A stretch of DNA of 64,000 nt, from the NCBI GenBank assembly GCA_012730105.1, contig JAAYBJ010000063.1, forward strand, positions 1 through 64,000, read 5' to 3'. The notes beneath the pieces are model-generated. The model was not told the DNA's origin. It was given only the letters and a program-made list of their open reading frames with translations, and made no database searches. Each line of letters begins with the position of its first letter. Position 1 is the first letter of the stretch. Source of the stretch: Candidatus Hydrogenedentota bacterium (GTDB lineage: Bacteria > Hydrogenedentota > Hydrogenedentia > Hydrogenedentales > CAITNO01). Positions 30,507 to 45,177 of this stretch are shown in pieces. Made by a program: the position numbers and the translations under genes.

Positions 30507-32807
30507 ATGACTAAAAGCGTTTGTCCCTTTTTGCCTTTGAATTCATTTGTCTCCATGCTGTCGTTTTGCGTTCTGTTCCTGCTGGTTTCGGGCGCCATTA
30601 GCAACGCGGCTGAAACGCGGCCGGAAGGCGAAGATTCCGCCATAGTCGCGACGGGACGGGTGACTGTTTCCGGAAGTGCCACGGAACCCTTTATTTACAG
30701 GCTGGAGGAGCACCTGGACAAGGCCACCTTGAGCACATCCGCTATGGAGGAGAAAAGTGCACCTTCTGTATTAACGGTATGGCCGCCATCAACGCCGATT
30801 CCGCCCCTTGAATCTGAGAATGGCGAGTTGGTTGTTGTTGATAACATACTCAAATTCGCCTCGAAGGGCGAGGGATACGTAATCCTGCCGGAAGGCCTTG
30901 GCATCTTCTCGTCCGCGGCCGCCTCCGTCGCCTTGGAATTGCGCCTTACAGGCACCGATAAGATCAGGCTTTATTGGCGGCACAGATCCGTTCCCTGGGA
31001 CATAAACGTCCTGGAACTGGACGGCGATTATTTTGACATCCCCGCGAACGCGGACGGCGCCATGCATACCTATGACATACAGGTGCAGGGTATGGATGCA
31101 TTCCGGAAAAACCGCATTGTGGACGGTTTTATGCTGTTCTGCGATGCGGCTTCTTCCGTTGAAATAGTGCGTGTGGAAGTGCGCAATCGAACGGAACTAT
31201 TTTCAGGCGCGGCGGTCGGCGCCCGCGAATACGCCATAGGCGGCGAAATCCGACCGGTACTCTTCATGCACACGCCCGCCCGCGCGGCTTATCGCCTGCG
31301 CCTTCCCGATAATCCCGTTTTTACAGCCGGCCTGGCATCCGTGCAGGATAGCGGTCCAGCGTCATTCAGTCTTTCCGTTTCTCATGACAACCAACGACAG
31401 GTTGTTTTGGTTGAAGACAACGTCGGCTCGGAAAGATGGACGGACTGTCGCGCCGACCTGTCGGTATTCGCAGGCCGCGAAGTCGAAATCGAACTGTCCG
31501 TGAACTCTTCCGTGGCCGGCCAGGTAGGCATGTGGAGCACCCCATGCGTGTACGATGCGGAAGCCGGTCCGCGAACGTTACCAAACATTCTCGTATATCT
31601 CGTGGACGCCCTCCGCGCGGACCGCCTTGACGCTTATGGATACGAACGCATAACGGCACCTACCCTGTCGCTACTGGCCAGGGAAGGTGTCTTATTTCGG
31701 AATTGTTTTTCCCAGGAAACGTGTACTAAACCTTCGGTAATGACGCTCTATTCCGGGGTCGATTCACAAGCCCACGGGTACACGTGCAACAACGGCTACA
31801 CTTACGGTGACGAGTTCCGTTTTTTTTCCACAGTCCTGCACGACTTCGGGTACAGCACGGCGGCGATATCGCAGAACACCTATGCCCCGCCCCCATCGAC
31901 AACGCAAAAGTCTTTTGACCGGCTTGTGGATTTGTTTGACATCAACAAATCCGTCACCGAAGACTCGTACAATGCGGCGGCCGTCTTTCTGGAGCAGCAC
32001 CGCGACCGCCCCTTCTATCTGTATATCCACACCATGGAATGCCATGAATTATGGACGCCACGCCCGGAGGCCTGTCCCTACGCGGTACCCCCGCCCTTCG
32101 ACCAGGTGTACCGGGATCCTGAAAACGCCTTCCCCCCGGACAGGTATGATGGCAGCATTCTGTACGCGGATTATAACTTTAAGCGGGTCCGGGATAAGCT
32201 GGAGGAGCTCGGCCTCCTGAAGGATACCCTGATCATCTTCATTTCAGATCACGGCTTCGCCCTTGGAGAGCGCGGTGAATGGGCTCATGGCAAGGATCCC
32301 TATCAGGACCAGATACATGTTCCGCTGATCATGAGCTGGCCGGCGGGCGGCATCGGAAGTGCCGTGCTGTCCGAGCAGGTACAGGTGGCGGACATTGCCC
32401 CCACCCTGCTCGACCTCCTGAAACTGCCGGCACCTGAAATCTGCCAAGGTGAAAGCCTGTTACCCTTACTGCGCGGGGATAATTCACAGTTTCAAGGCAG
32501 GCCCATCTTTTCCTTTAACGGCTGGACATCGTGCGAAAGCGTCACGCGCGGCGACTGGAGATTTATGCGGAATCAGGACCGGGAAGAATTTCTGTATTCC
32601 ATAGCCGGAGGGGCCCCTGAAACGGAAAACCTGCTGTCGGCCCATCCGGACATCGCCGAGGAACTGCGCCAGAGTTTAAAAGCGCATCTCAAGAAGAATT
32701 CAAAAATTCGTGCGGCCACTACCCCTTCACCGGAAGGAAGCGCGGAAGTACAAGTTGACCCGGTGAAACTTGAAATTTTGAAATCCCTGGGGTATATCAG
32801 TGACTAG
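30507..32807 (+). CDS. Secreted sulfatase-fold (alkaline phosphatase superfamily) enzyme
   Basis: This protein of 766 residues has a signal peptide. Residues from about 45 to 350 look like beta-sandwich modules, and the C-terminal half is a sulfatase/alkaline-phosphatase fold. Metal-site motifs are NILVYLVDALRADRLD and IIFISDHGFALGERGEWAHGK. The nucleophile loop reads CTKPSVMTLYSG, so the position that is Cys or Ser in true sulfatases is Thr, with a Cys directly before it. That favours phosphohydrolase or phospho-transfer chemistry over formylglycine sulfatase. The C terminus LKSLGYISD is common in sulfatases of this kind and shows that its TAG is a real stop. The next gene starts with a GTG eight bases inside this one. 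Confidence 0.82.
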   Translation: MTKSVCPFLPLNSFVSMLSFCVLFLLVSGAISNAAETRPEGEDSAIVATGRVTVSGSATEPFIYRLEEHLDKATLSTSAMEEKSAPSVLTVWPPSTPIPPLESENGELVVVDNILKFASKGEGYVILPEGLGIFSSAAASVALELRLTGTDKIRLYWRHRSVPWDINVLELDGDYFDIPANADGAMHTYDIQVQGMDAFRKNRIVDGFMLFCDAASSVEIVRVEVRNRTELFSGAAVGAREYAIGGEIRPVLFMHTPARAAYRLRLPDNPVFTAGLASVQDSGPASFSLSVSHDNQRQVVLVEDNVGSERWTDCRADLSVFAGREVEIELSVNSSVAGQVGMWSTPCVYDAEAGPRTLPNILVYLVDALRADRLDAYGYERITAPTLSLLAREGVLFRNCFSQETCTKPSVMTLYSGVDSQAHGYTCNNGYTYGDEFRFFSTVLHDFGYSTAAISQNTYAPPPSTTQKSFDRLVDLFDINKSVTEDSYNAAAVFLEQHRDRPFYLYIHTMECHELWTPRPEACPYAVPPPFDQVYRDPENAFPPDRYDGSILYADYNFKRVRDKLEELGLLKDTLIIFISDHGFALGERGEWAHGKDPYQDQIHVPLIMSWPAGGIGSAVLSEQVQVADIAPTLLDLLKLPAPEICQGESLLPLLRGDNSQFQGRPIFSFNGWTSCESVTRGDWRFMRNQDREEFLYSIAGGAPETENLLSAHPDIAEELRQSLKAHLKKNSKIRAATTPSPEGSAEVQVDPVKLEILKSLGYISD

Positions 32808-35800
32808 ACGGTCCCCACACATCCTCCCTGTTTTATTATTCCTGGCTGCTTGTATGGCGGAAATCTGCGCAGCGCCATCACAGGGCCAGAGTCCCGGTGG
32901 TGCGCCGCTTATGGATCCAGGACATACCACGGCACAATGGCTGCAGGACGAGGGTATGTTGCTGCAATCGTTTCTTATGGCTCCCCGACAATCGACCAAT
33001 CGTGTGTGGTTTCCTGTTAAGTTGGACGAGGAAAGTCATGACACTGTTTCCGTAGCGGTGGGAGACATAAACAATGACGGGCAACCCGACATCATTACCG
33101 GCAATTTCAACAGCCCGAACCGGTTGTATGTCAATGAAGGCAGCGGTTCTTTTTCAAAAGGAACGGACCTCTCCGAAGAAAGCCATGCCACCAGTAATGT
33201 TATCCTTGGAGATTTGAACGGGGACGGTTTCCCGGATGTTATCGAATGTAACGCAAATCAAAAAAACCTGGCGTATATCAACAAAGGCGACGGAACTTTC
33301 CATCCCGGGGTCGCCTTTGCGGGAGACGTGCGCGACACGCGCTGCGCCGCCTCAGGCGATTTCAATGCTGACGGCCGCTTGGACATCCTATTCTGCAACT
33401 ACGGCACAACCAGCCTGATCCACCTGAACCGGGGAGGCAGTGAGTTCGGGGAGGGCATTCCCATCTCCGATGAATACTTGAATGTCACCTGCGTCAAGGT
33501 CGCGGACATGAACAAGGACGGCCTGCCAGATATTGTCATGGGACAGTGGGAACAGCCGATCCGCCTGTTCCTCAATAATGGCTTCGGCGCCTTCCATGAG
33601 GGGCTCAATATCACCAATGATGCTGAAAAGACAGCCGCGTTAGCCCTGGGTGACAGTAACGGCGATGGATGGATTGACATCGTCGCCGGAAACGAAGGCT
33701 CGCCGGACCGCCTGTACCTGAATTCGCCCGACCTTTCCTGGAAGGGCATGGACCTTGGCGCGGATAACTATTTGACCGTAGACATCCTTTTTGGCGATAT
33801 GGATGGCAACGGAACGGCTGACATCGTAACGGCGGCCGGTTCACTCGGATATCTTTTTTACGCGAACGGCGGCGGTATGTTCGCCGAAGGAATCACCTTT
33901 GCGGACGGCACACAAAATCCAGCCTCTGCCGCTCTTGGCGATTTTGACGGAGATGGCCGGCTTGATGTGGTGGCGGGAAATTCAGGGGTTCCAAATTATG
34001 TCTTTTTAAACCGCGGGTGCTCGAATCCTTTTTCGGGAGTAACAGGCGCCGCCTTCGGTCTTGAAGACACGAAAACCACCTGTCTGAAAGTGAGCGACAT
34101 CAACAACGATCACCGGCCGGACCTGGTTGTGGGCACCCTGAACCGCGGCCTCCTTACTCATGTCAGCGAACAAGACGGTAGCCTGGCTGAAAGCACTCCC
34201 ATCGCAGATGACATACACCAGGTCACAGCCATATCCGTTGCCGACCTCAACAATGACGGGCTTCAAGATATTATTGCTTGCGCCATGAAACAGGTAAGCA
34301 GGTACTACATCAATACGGAAAACGGCACTTGGACTGGTTATGATCTCGGCGCCGACGCCTATGCCACGACATCCATCAAGACCGGCGACCTGAACAAAGA
34401 CGGATTTGTTGACATTGTTACCGGTAATATGGGTTCGGAGAATCAATATTTTCTGAATAGCGGCAACGGTTCTTTCGCAGCGGGCGTAGACATAACCGAT
34501 GACATCTATGACACCTTTGCCATTGCAGTGGAGGACATGAACGGCGACGGATATCCGGACGTCCTGACTGGTAATTATGGCGGCAAAAACCGGCTGTATT
34601 TAAACACGGGCTGGATCCATCCCTTTTCCGGCGTCAAAGGCATCGAGATAACAGATGACATACATAGCACCCTGTCTCTGGCCGTTGGCGATGTGAACAA
34701 CGACGGCCTTATGGACGTAGTTACAGGCAATTACGCTAACACAAACCGGCTCTACCTGAACAACGGAACCAATTCACCCTTTAAAGGGACAGCGGGCATG
34801 GACATTACCGCAGACAGGGATAAGACTTTTTCGGTCGCGCTGGCCGATATTGACGACGATGGCGATCTGGACCTGATTGCGGGTAATTCTGGCATCCCGA
34901 ACCGTCTTTATCTCAACAACGGTTCAGGGGAGCCTTTCGCGGATGTCATCGGAACGCCGATTTCCGAGGATAACGATGAAACTCTTTCCATAATTGCCGC
35001 CGATGTGGACAAGAACGGAACGAAAGATATCATCGCAGGCATCCGAAACGCCGCCAACCGCCTTTATTACAACCCGGCAAGTCAACCCCGAGGCTATGGT
35101 TTCCTTTGCCGGGAGCAAACCGAAGGCGCCTATGGCGACATTGTTGCGTCTGACGTGATCAACACAGCGGTCCTGGATACCCTCCGCGCGGCATTTGTCC
35201 CGGAAATCACCCGTGATTGCCGGTTCCCTCAATTTGATTTCAACGGCAATACAGCCATATCCCGGCCGATAAACCGGCTGGAGGAATCCTTCACGGCAGT
35301 CACGGTCGGATTAAAAGCCTTTGTTCCCCCCAATACAAACTTCGATTTCTATGTCACCAACAACGGCGGTAAAGAGTGGTTCGGCGCCCGTGACGGCCAG
35401 ACCGTTTTCTTCCGGGAGAAGTCGAACGATCTGCGGTGGAAAACCGTTTTCAGATCGTTAACGCCGGTGCATTCTGCTCGAATATATGAAATCGAATTGA
35501 AGACGCCCCTGTTTACCGTCACATTTGAAACCGACGGCACCCCGGGCGCCCTACTTGAAGGAGAAACGGTGCAACAGGTCAAGGCCGGCGAAAACGCATC
35601 CCCTGTTACCGCCATTGCGCCTGATGGGTATTGCTTTGGCAGGTGGGAGGTGGATGATAAGCACTATACCTTTGAAAATCCCACTGTGGCCAGAAACATA
35701 ACCAAAGAGTTGGTATTGATGGCAGTGTTCGCACAACCGATCCGAAGCCTGGAGGAAATGCAGCGCATCGGCAACGATCCGGCCTATCCCCTCGATGGCC

Positions 35801-37149
35801 GGTATTGCCTAAACGGGGACATTGATGTCTCCCAAACAGGGGATTTTATTCCTATTGGGACGTTGAATGCACCATTTAACGGTTGTTTCATTGGCAACGA
35901 CAATGCTATCAACAGCCTGTCCCTCCAAGGCGCCGGGGAATCCTGCAACGGCCTTTTCGGAGCACTCGGAAAAGAAGCCGAGATTCACGATTTGTTTCTT
36001 CGTAATGTGAACATCTCTGACACCGGCCTCTGCACGGGGGCGTTGGCGGGCAACAATGACGGGCTCATTTCCAATTGCCATGTAACGGGTACCCTGGACT
36101 TTGAGTTTAATTGCGCATTCCGAGGCGCCTTGGCTGGTAAAAACGGTCCGTCGGGACAGATACGTGCATCTTCCGCGACAGCAACAATCCGAGGCCGTGG
36201 CGAATACATAGGCGGATTAGTTGGGGAAAGCAATGGTGCCCTGACCAACTGTTTTTTTCGGGGTGAAGTGGAAGGAAACAACAACATAGGCGGATTGGTT
36301 GGTTTCCAGAATGGCGGTACGATGTTCCGCTGTCGGGCAACGGCGAACGTGCGGGCCCATTTCGGTGAGGCAGGCGGGATAACAGGTGCCGTTTCCAACA
36401 GCATCCTTACGCAATGTTTTGCATCAGGCGCCACGGTTTCTGACAAGGGAGCGGCTGGCGGCCTTGCAGGAAGGGCGTGGACGGCGACAATCCGTCAGTG
36501 TTTCTCCCTGGTGCAAACCGCCTCATCAGAAGGATGCGCGTCTGGATTGGTCGGGATATACAACACTGGCACACTGGACACCTGCTATGCCGCAGGTCCT
36601 GTATCGGGGCCGGTCACTGGGGGCCTGCTGGACTATGTCATCGGCTGGCAGCCTTCCATATACCATTGTTACTGGGATATTGAAAACACAGGACAGGGGG
36701 CGCCAAGCCCCCGTGACACCAGACTGGAAGGCGCATTCGGCAAGGGTACTGTGGAAATGCTGTGCCCGGACACCTACGACGGCTGGCAGATAAACGGCGG
36801 CGGCGCCTTCGATTTATTGGAAGACAAAACCTATCCGTTCCTGCACGGAATGCCTCCCGAGGCACACATCGAAGCCGCAGGAGAGACTTCCGACAATGCC
36901 GTTTCCTTTAACATCTACTTTTCACTGCCGATACCCGGATTTGGCCCGACGGATTTGGTACTAGACTGTGGCGGCACTGAATACGTCCGACATTCCGTGT
37001 CGCCGCTGAATCAGTGTTACCCGTCAGTATGGCGAGCGGTCGTGGAAACAACTGGTAACACAGAGTCTATCTGGGCGACCGTTAACATCGGCGGACTGCT
37101 CGTTTCCAACACTGCGAATACGACCGTATTCTCCGTTACCATCAGATAA
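32800..37149 (+). CDS. Giant secreted FG-GAP/VCBS, List-Bact and GLUG repeat protein
   Basis: This extracellular protein of 1449 residues has a signal with a possible lipobox (LFLAAC, Cys18). Residues about 75-770 carry fourteen FG-GAP/VCBS blades with the calcium loop DxNxDGxxDI, such as DINNDGQPDI and DMNGDGYPDV; two blades read DG as NG or DH. About residues 905-975 are a Listeria-Bacteroides (InlB B) repeat (FETDGTPGALLEG). About 990-1330 hold GLUG motifs, such as IGGLVGESNGALTNC and IGGLVGFQNGGT, which likely form a beta helix. A short domain closes the chain. It should be a calcium-stabilised surface adhesin or polymer-binding protein. GTG 32800 overlaps the upstream stop, so it is coupled to the sulfatase-fold enzyme. 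Confidence 0.85.
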   Translation: MTRRSPHILPVLLFLAACMAEICAAPSQGQSPGGAPLMDPGHTTAQWLQDEGMLLQSFLMAPRQSTNRVWFPVKLDEESHDTVSVAVGDINNDGQPDIITGNFNSPNRLYVNEGSGSFSKGTDLSEESHATSNVILGDLNGDGFPDVIECNANQKNLAYINKGDGTFHPGVAFAGDVRDTRCAASGDFNADGRLDILFCNYGTTSLIHLNRGGSEFGEGIPISDEYLNVTCVKVADMNKDGLPDIVMGQWEQPIRLFLNNGFGAFHEGLNITNDAEKTAALALGDSNGDGWIDIVAGNEGSPDRLYLNSPDLSWKGMDLGADNYLTVDILFGDMDGNGTADIVTAAGSLGYLFYANGGGMFAEGITFADGTQNPASAALGDFDGDGRLDVVAGNSGVPNYVFLNRGCSNPFSGVTGAAFGLEDTKTTCLKVSDINNDHRPDLVVGTLNRGLLTHVSEQDGSLAESTPIADDIHQVTAISVADLNNDGLQDIIACAMKQVSRYYINTENGTWTGYDLGADAYATTSIKTGDLNKDGFVDIVTGNMGSENQYFLNSGNGSFAAGVDITDDIYDTFAIAVEDMNGDGYPDVLTGNYGGKNRLYLNTGWIHPFSGVKGIEITDDIHSTLSLAVGDVNNDGLMDVVTGNYANTNRLYLNNGTNSPFKGTAGMDITADRDKTFSVALADIDDDGDLDLIAGNSGIPNRLYLNNGSGEPFADVIGTPISEDNDETLSIIAADVDKNGTKDIIAGIRNAANRLYYNPASQPRGYGFLCREQTEGAYGDIVASDVINTAVLDTLRAAFVPEITRDCRFPQFDFNGNTAISRPINRLEESFTAVTVGLKAFVPPNTNFDFYVTNNGGKEWFGARDGQTVFFREKSNDLRWKTVFRSLTPVHSARIYEIELKTPLFTVTFETDGTPGALLEGETVQQVKAGENASPVTAIAPDGYCFGRWEVDDKHYTFENPTVARNITKELVLMAVFAQPIRSLEEMQRIGNDPAYPLDGRYCLNGDIDVSQTGDFIPIGTLNAPFNGCFIGNDNAINSLSLQGAGESCNGLFGALGKEAEIHDLFLRNVNISDTGLCTGALAGNNDGLISNCHVTGTLDFEFNCAFRGALAGKNGPSGQIRASSATATIRGRGEYIGGLVGESNGALTNCFFRGEVEGNNNIGGLVGFQNGGTMFRCRATANVRAHFGEAGGITGAVSNSILTQCFASGATVSDKGAAGGLAGRAWTATIRQCFSLVQTASSEGCASGLVGIYNTGTLDTCYAAGPVSGPVTGGLLDYVIGWQPSIYHCYWDIENTGQGAPSPRDTRLEGAFGKGTVEMLCPDTYDGWQINGGGAFDLLEDKTYPFLHGMPPEAHIEAAGETSDNAVSFNIYFSLPIPGFGPTDLVLDCGGTEYVRHSVSPLNQCYPSVWRAVVETTGNTESIWATVNIGGLLVSNTANTTVFSVTIR

Positions 37150-37455: not shown

Positions 37456-40449
37456 ATGAACATACGCCCAATGCGTGGGAAAAAGATGCTTGCCTTGGCT
37501 GACGCGATAATCGCCGTTCTTCTCTTCTTTTTCGGCAGTTACGCAGGCCGGCAGCACCTGGCCGATCTGAATCACGGACGTTCCCCCGTGACCAGTATTG
37601 AAATGCTTTACGGGCCGGCGGTAATGCTGGCCTGCGGCCGCGGATTTTATCAGCCTGACCTGGCCTTCTCACCCCCGCTGGGCGAATTTCTGCGTAATGA
37701 GCGGGAAACGTTGTCGCCCGATGTATTGCCAAAACATCTGCCCGAAGCGGAAAACTCGGTAAGTTCCTATCATCGCTACCTGCTTTACACGGTGGCGTTT
37801 TTCTGGCGCATATATGGCATTTCCTGGGCCGGGCTGGAACCTCTTTGCGCCCTTCTTCTCGGAATTTGTGCCTTTGCCGTGTACGGCATTATGAGATTGG
37901 GCATGGGGCGCCTTTTGAGCGCGGGGCTGGCCGTATTTTTTACCCTGTCGCCGCAGATGTTAACGATGATGAACAGTCTGCGCGATTTCAGCAAGGCCCC
38001 TTTCATTCTGCTCCTGATCTTTATACTGGGTGCGATGATCAAATATCGTTTCCGTTTCGGAACCTTGGCCGCCCTGTCCATCGTGCTCGGGTTGCTCAAC
38101 GGCATCGCCATGGGTTTCCGCCAGGATGCCCTGGTGTTTGTCGCGCCAGCGCTGGTGATTGTCCCCATTGCGGCGTTCAGGGCGCGCCATAGCCTCCGGT
38201 GGAGCTGCCTGCTGCCCCCGCTGCTGTTCCTGGCTGCCTTTCTGGCAACTGCCCACCCCATGCTTGGGCGCATGGAAGGCGGGGCGCAACCCTATCACCC
38301 TATGGTCCAGGGATTCTCAATGAAACGTGCGGCTTCGCTCGGCATGGAACCGGGCGCCTATGAACCGCTCGCCTCCGGCAGCGACAACTATACCTTCGCC
38401 ATGTTGCAGGATTACTATCGCCGCGTTAATAACGAACCGGACGCGATTTTCGGATTTAACAGTCCGGGCGCCGAAAAAGCCGGCCGCCAGTTTTTGGCGG
38501 ACATGGCGTTTCACTTCCCCGCCGACCTGCTGGCAAGGGGCTACGCCGCGCTGTTGCGCACACTGCGCTATACCGACGGCATTCCCATCTGGAGCATGGC
38601 CGGTTCTTTCTGGAAAGACTTGTTTGAAACATCACATTTCACGCTAAAAAATCACTTGCACTATTTCGGCATTATTTACGCGGGAATCGCCATCCTGCTG
38701 ATTAGCGGGCACAGCCTTTCACTGGCATTCGGGTTACTTTTCTTTGTCCTGTTCATCTGCGGATATGTCAGCCTTCAATGCGAATTCCGGCACGCGTTCC
38801 ACCTGTCTTTCGTGCCCTTGTGGATACTGGGCTTTCTCTTCCAGCGTTTGATGGCCGCGCCGCTTCTCCTTCGCAAAAAGCCCCTTGAAAATCAAGGACT
38901 AGGGCGAAACAACCTTAAGCGCATGGCGGCGTTCGCCTTGGGCGCGACGATCGTGGTCCTTGCACCGCTCTACCTGCTGCGCGCTTTTCAGTATTATCAG
39001 GTAAAACCCCTGCTGGCGGCCATCGCATCAAGCAAACGCATACCCGTTCCGGTGAAGAAGCACTCCGAACTACAGTGGACCAGGTTCACCCTGCGCGAAT
39101 CGGAACCGCCAATACGTGAAGAAACATCTCCGCAGGCGCAGACGGACCTGGAGGCGCTGTATGTGATTCTTGCGCGAATAGTACAGTCTGTCTATTCAGG
39201 AGATGGGCAGCAGGCCTGGCAGACCAAAGCGCGTTATTTCGCACTGGAGCTTTCCTCGGGAACCCCGCTGGAATGGATCGTACTGCTTTATGATTCACCC
39301 GCCCCCTGGAACAATTTTTCACAGATCATCCGTGTACGGTTGCCCAAGTCCGAAGAAAGCTCCATACTGTATTTATTTCCTGCCTATGAATTAACAATGC
39401 CCTCGCCCATCGGGGTGGTACGAAACCATTTCAAAGGTTTTGCGCTGCCGGAAAACCTGGCCGGCGCCTTTATGAACCTCTATGAAGTCACGGATGTATC
39501 CTGCCTTCGCTTTCTGATGCATGCAATGCTCCCTCCCGATGCCGAAGCGCCCGTTCGTACCTATCAACGCATTCAATTCACCCCCGATCCCTCGGACACG
39601 TTTCGGGTCGACGATGAACCGGTAAGCACAATCGGAATGGCTGAGGCCGCCGCGCGTTTCGGCGAGACGGAACAAGCAGAACTACTGTTTGACGCGGCAC
39701 TCCTGGTCAACCAAGATCCTGTGCAGAGGCTTTATATCGCCAAGTCATTGATCGCCATCGGGAAATACGACGCGGCCACACATGTGGTCCTGAATGAGAT
39801 ACACCTTTCGGGTACGGAAACATCCTTCGCGCAAGAATTGCTTGTTCAAATCATCCAGCGACATATCAGGCGAAACGAAACAGAAAAGGCGGAAGCGCTT
39901 CTTCACACCCTGCACAACCTTTGGGCGAAGGATTCTCCCGATTTGCTGCTCCAGGCGCTGGAAATCGTCAGCCTGACGGCTCCCCCGGAGTTAATCGAGG
40001 AATCATACGCCCGTTTGCTCCTTGCGCATCCGGAACATCAGCCGACGGCGGACTATTGGGAACAATGGACTCATGAACACGGGCTTGAAGAGAGACTCGC
40101 GCTTTTTTGGCAAAGAATATGCAGCGAACGTCCCGATTCCGTTCTGCCTTTTCTGAGACTCGGTCTTGTCCAGGAACAGGACGGCGCAAAGGCCGCGGCG
40201 GAAGCGGCCTATGCGGCCGCCCGCACAAACAACCCATCCCATCCTGAGGCTGCCATCCGACATGCCGTATTTAAACTGGAATCAGCGGATCCCGGAGAGG
40301 CTTTGGAAGAAATTGCGCGGGCCCTCAAAGAAGCGCCCGAATTGAAAAACCTGGTCGCTCAGCTGCTGGAATCCGTTGGCGACCGACTGGCGGCGCGCGG
40401 CGCCCCAAACGCCGCGGAACCAGTCTATGCGCTCGCATTCGCCTGCTAG
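37456..40449 (+). CDS. Giant membrane-TPR protein, part before an in-frame TAG
   Basis: This N-terminal part has 997 codons. Residues about 15-480 form a polytopic membrane domain (IIAVLLFFFGSY, LLGICAFAVYGI, LLLIFILGAMI and others) that resembles GT-C membrane glycosyltransferases in its hydrophobic pattern, though I see no firm DE motif. A periplasmic region follows, and from about residue 720 TPR helices such as AAARFGETEQAELLFDAALL. The frame ends at TAG (40447-40449) after ALAFAC, in the middle of a TPR. The same frame then continues for another 604 codons of TPRs (to 42264). It is therefore either the front part of one 1602-residue protein with a nonsense mutation, a readthrough site, or a base-call error. 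Confidence 0.8.
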   Translation: MNIRPMRGKKMLALADAIIAVLLFFFGSYAGRQHLADLNHGRSPVTSIEMLYGPAVMLACGRGFYQPDLAFSPPLGEFLRNERETLSPDVLPKHLPEAENSVSSYHRYLLYTVAFFWRIYGISWAGLEPLCALLLGICAFAVYGIMRLGMGRLLSAGLAVFFTLSPQMLTMMNSLRDFSKAPFILLLIFILGAMIKYRFRFGTLAALSIVLGLLNGIAMGFRQDALVFVAPALVIVPIAAFRARHSLRWSCLLPPLLFLAAFLATAHPMLGRMEGGAQPYHPMVQGFSMKRAASLGMEPGAYEPLASGSDNYTFAMLQDYYRRVNNEPDAIFGFNSPGAEKAGRQFLADMAFHFPADLLARGYAALLRTLRYTDGIPIWSMAGSFWKDLFETSHFTLKNHLHYFGIIYAGIAILLISGHSLSLAFGLLFFVLFICGYVSLQCEFRHAFHLSFVPLWILGFLFQRLMAAPLLLRKKPLENQGLGRNNLKRMAAFALGATIVVLAPLYLLRAFQYYQVKPLLAAIASSKRIPVPVKKHSELQWTRFTLRESEPPIREETSPQAQTDLEALYVILARIVQSVYSGDGQQAWQTKARYFALELSSGTPLEWIVLLYDSPAPWNNFSQIIRVRLPKSEESSILYLFPAYELTMPSPIGVVRNHFKGFALPENLAGAFMNLYEVTDVSCLRFLMHAMLPPDAEAPVRTYQRIQFTPDPSDTFRVDDEPVSTIGMAEAAARFGETEQAELLFDAALLVNQDPVQRLYIAKSLIAIGKYDAATHVVLNEIHLSGTETSFAQELLVQIIQRHIRRNETEKAEALLHTLHNLWAKDSPDLLLQALEIVSLTAPPELIEESYARLLLAHPEHQPTADYWEQWTHEHGLEERLALFWQRICSERPDSVLPFLRLGLVQEQDGAKAAAEAAYAAARTNNPSHPEAAIRHAVFKLESADPGEALEEIARALKEAPELKNLVAQLLESVGDRLAARGAPNAAEPVYALAFAC

Positions 40450-40488
40450 CCCGAAAAAGGGCTGCTGGGTATCAAACAAGCCAACGCG

Positions 40489-42264
40489 TTGCTTGAAACG
40501 CGCCGTTTCGACGAGGCGCTGTCCGTTATAGAAAAGATTATGCACACCGACAGAAGAGAAGAAGCCCTCGGGCAGCTCGCCCGTGTATGGGAGGCACAGA
40601 AGTCGGAAAATGAACGCGTAGCGTCATGGCGAGATATGGCCGGACGTCATCCAGAGGACGACGCGGTTCGGCGCCTGTATGCCGAAGCATTGTTTTTTTC
40701 CGGAAGATACACCGAAGCGGTGGAGCTTATACAAAACGCGGATACCCCATGGCGCTCAAAACCCGAACAGGAAGCTTTGCTCGCCATTGCGCGCTTTGCC
40801 GCAGGGGAAGAAACACCCGAAAACCTCGCCGGAAACGCGCTTTGGAAGGAACGCGCCGAATTAAAAGCGGAAGTTGTCGGCCTGTTGAACCGGGCGGCGC
40901 AACATATGGAATCTGAATCACGCTTCGAGAACGCGCTGCGACTCGTGAACGCCGCCGCGCTTCTTTCCCCGGAATCTGAAACTGCCCTGCTGGACCTGGG
41001 ACGCGTCCACGAAGCCAATGGCAGGGATGAAGACGCGATGCGCCTCTACTGGCAGGGTTTCAGCTCAGTAAACGACGTCAATCAGACAATTATCGCGGAG
41101 CGGATAGATGCCCTGTATGAACGCCTGGGCAACAATGAGGAACGGCTGAAGCAATGGGAGATAATCCACAGGCAGGACAGCGGCAACCCTGTCGCCGCGT
41201 TCCATTTCGGCCTTGCCTGTGAAGCAAATCGTCAATGGCGGGAAGCCGCTGATGTCTATGGCGGAATCACGTCTCCGGAAATGCTGAAACATAAGGCGAA
41301 TCTTCGTCGCGGCGCGGCGCTGTTGCGTCTTGGAAGCATTGAAGAAGGCGCCGGCCTGATACGGTCCGCAGTCTCCGCCGACCCGCAGGCCCATGCGCTC
41401 GGAGCCATGCTCAGCCTGCAGGCGGGCAATGATTTTCTGTTGGCGGGTCAGGTGGACGAAGCGGAAGTAATCTCACTCCTGGCAGTTGAATTGGTGCCGG
41501 AGGACGCGTTTATACAGTTATTCAGAGGCGATGTCCTGAAAGCGCAAGAGCGGAATGCGGGTGCGGTTCAAGCATGGCAAAACGCGCTTCATTCAGGATG
41601 GAATACCATGGCCGGAGCGGAAGCGGGCAGGCGAATCGACAATCTGCTCACGGTGGAAGAGCGGCTTCAATTCTGGGAAGAACTTGCCGCAGCACACCCG
41701 GAATCCCCCTATCCGAACGCACGCCGCGCACTGGCGCTCCTCCCGGCCGGCAGGGCAGCCGAGGCGCTGGCCTTTTGCCGATCCGTAGCCAATGAGACGA
41801 GCACGGATATGGAAGCCCGGTATGCCTGCGCTTTGACAGAATGCGCGACGGGTGACACGGAACAGGGAATGGCAGCGCTGGATGCCATACTCGGACAGGC
41901 GCCCTACCTGAAAAATGACGCACTGCCCGCCCTGGCTGATTTTGGGCTGAAACAGTTGGAGACAGGCAATGCTGAAGTCGCGGAAAGACTGTTGCGAAAG
42001 GCGGTAGAACTGGGCCCGGGAAACCTGCTCTATTACATCCACCTGGGCAGCGCCCTCTTGGCGCAAAAAAAGTACGAAGAAGCGGCCGCGCAATTCCGGA
42101 AAGTGCTCCTTGAAGTACCGGAATCGCCTAATGCAGCGAAGCTGTTTGACGAGGCCCTGGCTGGTTTAAACAATGATGAAACACGCCTGCGCGAGTGGCA
42201 AACCGTTGTAAATACACACCCTGCCGCTGCTATTCCCCGCAACTACCTGGAAGCGTTGAAGTAG
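40489..42264 (+). CDS. Giant membrane-TPR protein, TPR part after the in-frame TAG
   Basis: This stretch continues in the same frame as the previous entry. Codons 40450-40488 (PEKGLLGIKQAN) are open and complete the interrupted TPR, so the TTG at 40489 is only the first possible start after the TAG, with no ribosome-binding site. The 591 residues are nearly all TPR-like helices (LETRRFDEALSVIEKI, LDLGRVHEANGRDEDAM, LGSALLAQKKYEEAAAQFRK). TPR arrays of this kind dock partner proteins; here they would lie outside the inner membrane if joined to the membrane domain. Separate translation is not supported. It ends with TAG followed by G, while the internal TAG is followed by C. Confidence 0.65.
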   Translation: MLETRRFDEALSVIEKIMHTDRREEALGQLARVWEAQKSENERVASWRDMAGRHPEDDAVRRLYAEALFFSGRYTEAVELIQNADTPWRSKPEQEALLAIARFAAGEETPENLAGNALWKERAELKAEVVGLLNRAAQHMESESRFENALRLVNAAALLSPESETALLDLGRVHEANGRDEDAMRLYWQGFSSVNDVNQTIIAERIDALYERLGNNEERLKQWEIIHRQDSGNPVAAFHFGLACEANRQWREAADVYGGITSPEMLKHKANLRRGAALLRLGSIEEGAGLIRSAVSADPQAHALGAMLSLQAGNDFLLAGQVDEAEVISLLAVELVPEDAFIQLFRGDVLKAQERNAGAVQAWQNALHSGWNTMAGAEAGRRIDNLLTVEERLQFWEELAAAHPESPYPNARRALALLPAGRAAEALAFCRSVANETSTDMEARYACALTECATGDTEQGMAALDAILGQAPYLKNDALPALADFGLKQLETGNAEVAERLLRKAVELGPGNLLYYIHLGSALLAQKKYEEAAAQFRKVLLEVPESPNAAKLFDEALAGLNNDETRLREWQTVVNTHPAAAIPRNYLEALK

Positions 42265-42393: not shown

Positions 42394-43374
42394 ATGCGCC
42401 AAATGTTCGAAACAGGTATGGCCCTCGTGAAACTCCATTTACTGCGGAAAAGGGTACCTCTGTTCGCTTCGTGGAACATCACCTTTCGCTGCAATCTTCG
42501 ATGCCTGTATTGCGCCTCCTGTGATGCTCCGCGCGATGAATTGAATACGGCGGAGGTATGCTCCGGGCTGGACGCATTATGGCGCATGGGCACCCGCTGG
42601 ATTACCTTCGGCGGGGGGGAACCCCTGCTTCGCCAGGACATTGGCGAAATCCTGAACTATTCGAAACGAAAAGGCTTTCAAACCTATCTCAGCTCCAACG
42701 GCTGGCTGCTTCAAAACCGTCTTGCCGAGATACGTCCTTACGTGGACCACCTCAATCTCAGCCTGGACGGCACCCGTGAAGTGCATGACAAGGTCCGGGG
42801 CGAAGGCGCCTACGACAAGGTCCTTGAAGCACTGAATCTGTGTAAAAGTTCCGACATCCACGTGAGCCTGCAGTGCGTTTTGAATCGTTACAACCTGGAC
42901 ACGGTGGATGACGCTGTCGCCACGGCAAAAGAATACGGCGTGCCGATTATGTTTCAACCGGCCACCAAATGGCTCAGCACGTCCACCCGTGAGAATCCCA
43001 TCGCCCCCGACACGGCGGAATACCGCGAGGCCATCGCCCATATTGTACAGTTGAAACGGCAGGGTGCGCCGGTGCGCAACTCCTTCACAGGTCTGCGCCA
43101 CCTGGCCTCCTGGCCGGACCCGCAGTCCATTTTCTGCATCGCCGGGCGTTCCATGATCATCCTGGAAGCGGACGGCTCCATGATCGCCTGCCACCAGTGC
43201 CAAGTCGCCGACTTTCTGAACGGCAAAGCGGGCCGGGGCTCCATGGAAGAAAACTTCAAAAACCTGCGGCTACCAACGCATTGTGTCCAATGCTGGTGCG
43301 CGCCGGTGGTTGAGTTGTGTCTGTTCTTTTCCCTGCGCCCGGAAGCCATGCTGAATGCGTTGCGCCATAAATAA
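42394..43374 (+). CDS. Radical SAM protein with SPASM/twitch-like C-terminal cysteines
   Basis: This protein of 326 residues has the radical SAM cluster CNLRCLYC at Cys33, Cys37 and Cys40, the SAM-binding TFGGGEPLL, and LNLSLDG. The C-terminal part holds more cysteines (FCIAGRS, ACHQCQ, HCVQCWCAPVVELC), suggesting an auxiliary iron-sulfur cluster as in SPASM or twitch domains. Such enzymes modify peptides or small substrates. No short precursor peptide is obvious nearby, and the neighbour is a carbamoyltransferase, so a role in sugar or surface-polymer modification is as likely as a RiPP. ATG 42394 has GAGG eight bases upstream; the frame is open further back, right to the stop of the TPR gene. 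Confidence 0.82.
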   Translation: MRQMFETGMALVKLHLLRKRVPLFASWNITFRCNLRCLYCASCDAPRDELNTAEVCSGLDALWRMGTRWITFGGGEPLLRQDIGEILNYSKRKGFQTYLSSNGWLLQNRLAEIRPYVDHLNLSLDGTREVHDKVRGEGAYDKVLEALNLCKSSDIHVSLQCVLNRYNLDTVDDAVATAKEYGVPIMFQPATKWLSTSTRENPIAPDTAEYREAIAHIVQLKRQGAPVRNSFTGLRHLASWPDPQSIFCIAGRSMIILEADGSMIACHQCQVADFLNGKAGRGSMEENFKNLRLPTHCVQCWCAPVVELCLFFSLRPEAMLNALRHK

Positions 43375-43449: not shown

Positions 43450-45177
43450 ATGACCCTGTGGCTCGGCATAAATGAAGACTTGTTTGATTCGGGTGTCGCC
43501 CTCGGCGACGGGGAAAAGGTGCTGTTCGCCTCCAATGAAGAACGATACACGCGCCGTAAAAATGAAGGCGGCTTCCCGAAACTTGCCTTGGACTCCCTTT
43601 TCGCCTATACCGGCGCGAACCCGTCGGACGTGGACCACATCTGCATGTCCGGCCTGATGACGCCTCCCCCGCCGGTGCGCCTTCTGCCGCGTTCCCATCT
43701 CTGGCTTTACAACGCACGCCGTGAAAAGAAAGACTCGTTCCTGCGCAAAGTAATGGACGACGCCACGTTCTATCTGCCGGTCTCTCACACATCGGAAACG
43801 TCCCTGCTGCGCCGCATGTGCGTGCCCTTTCTGCCGGCCTTGACCCGCATGGTGCTTCCCCGGGCTTTGAAAGGCAAATCCCTTCACTATGTGGAACATC
43901 ATGTGGGCCACGCGGCCGCGGCCTGGAAACTGTCCGGGTTTGAAGAAGCGCTCGTGCTCTCCATTGATGGCATGGGCGATGGGTTGTCCTTGCTGGTGCT
44001 GCACTGCGTTCCCGGAAAACCCATGAAAAGACTTTGGGCGGTTTCCTCCCGGGACAGCCTGGGACTGTTCTTCCAGGTATTGGCCGAAGCCTTCGGATTT
44101 GTGTCCTGCCGGGACGAGGGCAAGATAACCGGCCTGGCCGCCGGGGGAAATGCCGCAAATGTGGAGACACCCTTCCCCTTCCGCTACGACGAGGGTAGGC
44201 TTGAATTTACCGGCGGCTTCGGTTTCGGACAGCGGGGCATCGACTGGGCAAAACGCACACTGGCGGACAAATACAGCAGGGAAGATCTCGCGGCCTGGGC
44301 GCAGGAAAACCTAGAAAAATATGTGGTCGAAATCGCCCGGACCTGGCTGCGCAACACCGGTCTTCGAAACCTGGCTGTGGCGGGCGGTGTTGTGGCCAAT
44401 GTGAAATTGAACCAGCGTCTTCACGAGCTTCCCGAAGTGGACCACCTGTTTGTCCTGCCAAATATGGGCGATGGCGGGTTGGGACTGGGCGCCTTGTGCG
44501 CTCATGACGGCATCGCGCCGCAACGCGTGCGGAATGTCTTCTGGGGCGAATCCTACACAGACGCGGAGATTGAAACCGAGCTGAAGCGGGCAAATCTTGA
44601 TTACCATCAGACCGAAGACATCGAAGCGGAAACGGCAGTACTCCTCGCGCAGGGTCATATCGTCGCCCGATTCTCCGGACGCATGGAATGGGGGCCGCGC
44701 GCCTTGGGGAACCGCTCCATCCTGGTGCGCACCACGGACCGCGTCGTGGTCAACCGTCTGAACCATTTGCTCCAGCGCAGCGATTTCATGCCTTTCGCCC
44801 CCGCCGTCCTCCAGGAAGACGCTCCTCTATACTGCATTCATCCCGAGCCGGCTCTGCATGCCGCCGAGTTCATGACCGTATGTTTCGATTGCACGGACAA
44901 AATGAAGCGGGAAAACCCCGCCATCGTCCATCTTGACGGCACCGCACGTGCCCAGTTGGTGTATAAGGAGAATAATCCCGGCTTCCATAAAATCCTCTCT
45001 ATCTTCAAGGAGAAAACCGGAAGCAGTGTGCTGCTCAACACCAGTTTCAACATTCATGAAGAACCCATCATACGAACGCCTAAGGAGGCGATCACGGCAT
45101 TTTTAAAAGCACAATTGGACTACCTGGCTCTCGGCGCTTTTCTTGTCAAAAGGCAGGACCATGCCCGCGTACAGTAA
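43450..45177 (+). CDS. Carbamoyltransferase, NodU/CmcH family
   Basis: This protein of 575 residues has a two-domain architecture. The N-terminal Kae1-like domain has the metal motif VEHHVGHAAAA and a SIDGMGDG phosphate loop, and it makes carbamoyl-adenylate from carbamoyl phosphate and ATP. AVAGGVVANVKLNQ and GDGGLGLGA follow. The C-terminal domain contains GRMEWGPRALGNRSIL and NTSFNIHEEPI, typical of the family. The acceptor is usually a hydroxyl of a sugar or natural product; here a surface glycan is the likeliest guess. It lies 75 bases after the radical SAM gene and overlaps the propeller gene by 17 bases, so the three probably work together. Confidence 0.9.
   Translation: MTLWLGINEDLFDSGVALGDGEKVLFASNEERYTRRKNEGGFPKLALDSLFAYTGANPSDVDHICMSGLMTPPPPVRLLPRSHLWLYNARREKKDSFLRKVMDDATFYLPVSHTSETSLLRRMCVPFLPALTRMVLPRALKGKSLHYVEHHVGHAAAAWKLSGFEEALVLSIDGMGDGLSLLVLHCVPGKPMKRLWAVSSRDSLGLFFQVLAEAFGFVSCRDEGKITGLAAGGNAANVETPFPFRYDEGRLEFTGGFGFGQRGIDWAKRTLADKYSREDLAAWAQENLEKYVVEIARTWLRNTGLRNLAVAGGVVANVKLNQRLHELPEVDHLFVLPNMGDGGLGLGALCAHDGIAPQRVRNVFWGESYTDAEIETELKRANLDYHQTEDIEAETAVLLAQGHIVARFSGRMEWGPRALGNRSILVRTTDRVVVNRLNHLLQRSDFMPFAPAVLQEDAPLYCIHPEPALHAAEFMTVCFDCTDKMKRENPAIVHLDGTARAQLVYKENNPGFHKILSIFKEKTGSSVLLNTSFNIHEEPIIRTPKEAITAFLKAQLDYLALGAFLVKRQDHARVQ

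Follow-up and report, generated by a model that had tools for sequence, protein, structure and literature searches.

An in-frame TAG in a long gene for a GT-C-like membrane protein with a TPR tail in a Candidatus Hydrogenedentota draft genome: probably a recent, private nonsense substitution

The window (the whole stretch of DNA that was analysed, 64,000 nucleotides) comprises positions 1-64,000 of the forward strand of contig JAAYBJ010000063.1 from the Candidatus Hydrogenedentota bacterium assembly GCA_012730105.1, a draft genome (G000) of 5.63 Mb in 343 contigs, 98.5% complete and 3.2% contaminated. The genus comparison set consisted of four genomes, with one genome per species. The features at the locus are as follows.

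32800..37149, + strand: FG-GAP/GLUG repeat protein, 1449 codons, directly upstream of the membrane-TPR gene
37456..40449, + strand: 5' part of the membrane-TPR gene, 997 codons and TAG; GT-C-like membrane domain at about residues 1-540, linker region, first TPRs at about 900-970
37456..39075, + strand: membrane domain with a GT-C-like predicted fold (AlphaFold2, Foldseek, PMT_2 in two of 13 family members)
40441..40470, + strand: predicted local hairpin that takes in part of the TAG (121-nt fold, z -2.0)
40447..40449, + strand: in-frame TAG, then C; aligned residue in genus relatives A, D, D, Q, F
40450..42264, + strand: 3' part of the same frame, 604 codons, TPRs throughout (TPR_19, 1.2e-21), with coding statistics; ends with TAG followed by G
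42394..43374, + strand: radical SAM protein; the G002 counterpart, 77% identical, is at the corresponding position
43450..45177, + strand: NodU-type carbamoyltransferase; the G002 counterpart, 87% identical, keeps the gene order

Upstream of these, a sulfatase-family protein (30507-32807) has a long N-terminal extension, and its end overlaps the start of the FG-GAP/GLUG gene; the place of the latter gene is not clearly conserved in G002, where repeat matches only were obtained.

The frame that begins at ATG 37456 meets its first stop at TAG 40447-40449 and its next at TAG 42262-42264, with none between. An in-frame TAG within one long frame, open to 42264, had been described in the initial annotation, and this description is confirmed by the frame itself, by G+C content at the codon positions and by comparison of the six frames. 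Codon-position G+C is similar on either side of the TAG (62/42/64% before, 69/44/60% after); 604 codons would stay open by chance at the given composition with a probability of about 1e-10, the other five frames holding 9-23 stops; and under a codon model the gene frame outscores the other five on either side, with margins of 0.11 and 0.12 over 100 codons. The 604 codons downstream of the TAG are coding. The Pro that follows the internal stop stands at its usual TPR position, as had been noted from the window, and is seen there in relatives.

Coding resumes at once after the stop, TTG 40489 or CTG 40462 are possible starts, and TPR tails are able to fold alone; each of these would suit a fission of the gene, in which the tail is a separate protein re-initiated after the stop. 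We regard such a fission as very improbable: the first in-frame ATG lies 30 codons on and is without a Shine-Dalgarno-like stretch, in agreement with the initial annotation, no ATG or GTG with such a stretch was found in the tail start region, the weak AAGG near CTG 40462 is spaced too close, and the relatives described below are single genes.

For residues 1-540 the AlphaFold2 model has a mean pLDDT of 83, and the best solved structures found with Foldseek are ALG3, AglB, yeast OST, ArnT and Pmt4 (probability 0.75-1.0, but E 0.004-0.1 and TM about 0.3-0.4). The top matches are nearly all GT-C enzymes, with probabilities near 1, and the predicted membrane fold is closest to this group (ALG3, AglB/STT3, ArnT, Pmt); it differs from them in that the window protein matches none of the Pfam glycosyltransferase models, PMT_2 being matched by two of 13 family members only (best 2.6e-5). 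The family profile matched no solved structure by sequence. Judged from the model, the product is likely a GT-C-type glycosyltransferase with a TPR tail. TMTC-type proteins consist of a GT-C domain and a TPR tail; the order is the same here, a GT-C-like membrane part and then TPRs, the window protein being bacterial and the likeness one of layout only.

About ten further members of this family are present in the window genome, and 70 of the 96 family frames found have about 1000 codons or fewer, some of them shortened by contig ends. With or without a TPR tail, the family is strongly multiplied in the order (as many as about 15 matches in one genome among G000-G059), with tandem copies in G008:C8 (L050); hardly any Pfam model matches it.

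The orthologue in G002 is split over two contigs: C119 holds the first 995 residues (57% identity), has GCC (Ala) at codon 998 and is open past the TAG site to the contig end; on C132 lies the tail, and after it come the genes for the radical SAM protein and the carbamoyltransferase, just as in the window. It is the only other orthologue that spans the TAG site, and its own tail contains a frameshift. Three long and more distant relatives are single frames: G002:C377 (1594 codons, D at the TAG position), G000:C124 from the window's own genome (1604 codons, Q) and G001:C5 (1610 codons, F). The initial annotation had allowed for orthologues that are two separate genes with their own starts; this was tested, and single frames were found instead. 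It had also proposed comparing orthologues at the stop position, and this gave Ala in the syntenic orthologue, D, Q or F in the other relatives, and no stop; the position is accordingly variable (A, D, Q, F). Since the long relatives are uninterrupted and the orthologue has Ala at the site, the alignments indicate that the gene was ancestrally a single unbroken one and that the TAG is private to the window draft genome.

Following the suggestion of an amber suppressor tRNA or pyl genes, the window genome was searched for such a tRNA and for pylS, and neither was found: the best matches to the PylS model are far below the cut-off, with similarly weak ones in nearly all control genomes, and a UAG-reading tRNA (CUA anticodon) is absent from the 41 typed tRNA genes of a draft set that is incomplete, a dedicated pattern giving no match either. 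Release factor 1 (RF1) is present. In 1.57 Mb sampled from the same genome, TAG is the terminator in 227 of 1127 coding frames (20%), and the same frame continues past a stop in 76 cases, 16 of them after TAG (21%); nearly all continuations after TAG resemble ordinary adjacent genes that have their start nearby, and they are no commoner than after TAA or TGA. TAG is thus neither depleted as a terminator nor enriched inside genes in this sample. That the organism reads TAG as an amino acid, through pyrrolysine or a suppressor tRNA, can be practically dismissed: no point was found in its favour, and the lack of pylS above the cut-off and of a UAG-reading tRNA (in an incomplete tRNA set), the presence of RF1 and the use of TAG as an ordinary stop all count against it.

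Readthrough at this one stop, by misreading with a near-cognate tRNA and giving a short and a long protein, is a separate matter. The initial annotation had correctly recorded C after the internal TAG and G after the final one, and had taken the C as a context that favours readthrough. This does not hold here: among the 227 TAG ends in the 1.57 Mb sampled the +4 base is C in 66 (29%) and G in 78, and in E. coli reporters it is G that raises readthrough and T that lowers it, predicted mRNA structure being without measurable effect (PMC11126739). An older study has +4 T and C favouring termination, and the order with C first comes from mammalian cells (PMC11126739); for the +4 C effect Wei and Xia likewise refer to yeast (PMC5289835). 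The hairpin at 40441..40470 was considered as a readthrough signal and rejected: its z is only -2.0, the region was picked post hoc, the stem contains the stop, and the orthologue shows no conservation of this DNA. Functional readthrough could claim the undiminished constraint on the tail, the lack of any further stop over 604 codons and the local hairpin; we nevertheless hold it to be unlikely, as the stop is missing from every relative checked, which leaves no conserved signal, the +4 C is ordinary, and mRNA structure was ineffective in E. coli (PMC11126739). With a private stop, a residue that is not conserved and decoding machinery that was not found, the programmed readthrough first proposed is unsupported.

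The age of the lesion was addressed by an amino-acid branch comparison; dN/dS was set aside, silent substitutions between orthologues being saturated at 57% identity. Dividing the length of the window branch by that of the G002 branch gives 1.42 for the part before the stop, 1.49 for its TPR portion and 1.23 for the part after the stop; accelerated evolution of the tail after the TAG was not seen in these ratios. A tail long unread would be expected to show a longer window branch after the stop, and none is seen; by this comparison the TAG would be young, unreal or read through. We infer youth, and an undamaged tail is equally compatible with continued production.

Other members of the family carry lesions as well. 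In G003:C23 (L046) one nucleotide is deleted from the TPR tail at about 571-595, the 95-98% identical G002 copy (1594 codons) being intact, and single stops occur at other places in G003:C280 (TGA), G035:C110 and G056:C248 (both TAG). Together with the frameshift in the G002 orthologue, this makes three of six long copies within the genus with a tail lesion of their own. As far as the compared sequences go, private lesions appear not to be rare in the GT-C-like/TPR family among draft genomes.

The interrupted-gene scan used a six-frame comparison, a plain codon-usage scan having been swamped by antisense shadow frames. The TAG of the membrane-TPR gene is the clearest within-gene stop that it found in the roughly 1.57 Mb covered, 28% of this genome, a rarity that an occasional error would also give. 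A wrong or minority-strain base in the draft, with the gene intact in living cells, is a real if lesser possibility; the state of the draft (343 contigs, 98.5% complete, 3.2% contaminated), the tail free of decay and the occurrence, in closely related drafts, of 1-nt lesions in this family where near-copies are intact would all fit it. Against it, the other tail lesions are indels, while this one is a clean substitution that leaves the frame as it was, and genuine nonsense mutations are frequent in bacteria: in-frame stops occur widely in bacterial genes, for the most part as polymorphisms of short duration, and are subject to purifying selection (PMC7918605). The present stop resembles those in being single, private and young within a gene conserved on both sides. 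It differs in that they were counted only if common to at least two species, which limits artefacts, whereas this one is from one genome only, a metagenome draft, and so is possibly not a real mutation. In assembled sequence a real nonsense mutation and a base error look the same.

Of the options in the initial annotation, nonsense mutation and sequencing error are therefore the best two. On balance we favour a nonsense substitution, recent and private, in a single long gene of Candidatus Hydrogenedentota, followed by a draft error or strain mixture, with functional readthrough unlikely. Under a nonsense substitution, the intact gene would have encoded some 1600 residues, with a GT-C-like membrane glycosyltransferase domain and then a long TPR tail; RF1 would now terminate at the TAG to give a product of 997 residues in which the membrane domain is retained and almost all clear TPRs are missing. 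The tail is still coding-like, and the time since the lesion may have been too short for decay. The loss is perhaps tolerable, with some ten other family members in the genome and shorter members common. The truncated protein may still work, because many family members have short tails or none, some of them owing to contig ends.

A single in-frame stop in one metagenome-derived draft, even with faultless coding sequence on both sides, is not in itself evidence of readthrough. That the TAG is a real regulatory stop, at which low-level readthrough in one lineage yields the membrane enzyme in a short form and, rarely, with its long TPR tail, seems to us quite unlikely; if readthrough were true, a membrane enzyme would shed or keep its interaction tail by way of termination efficiency.
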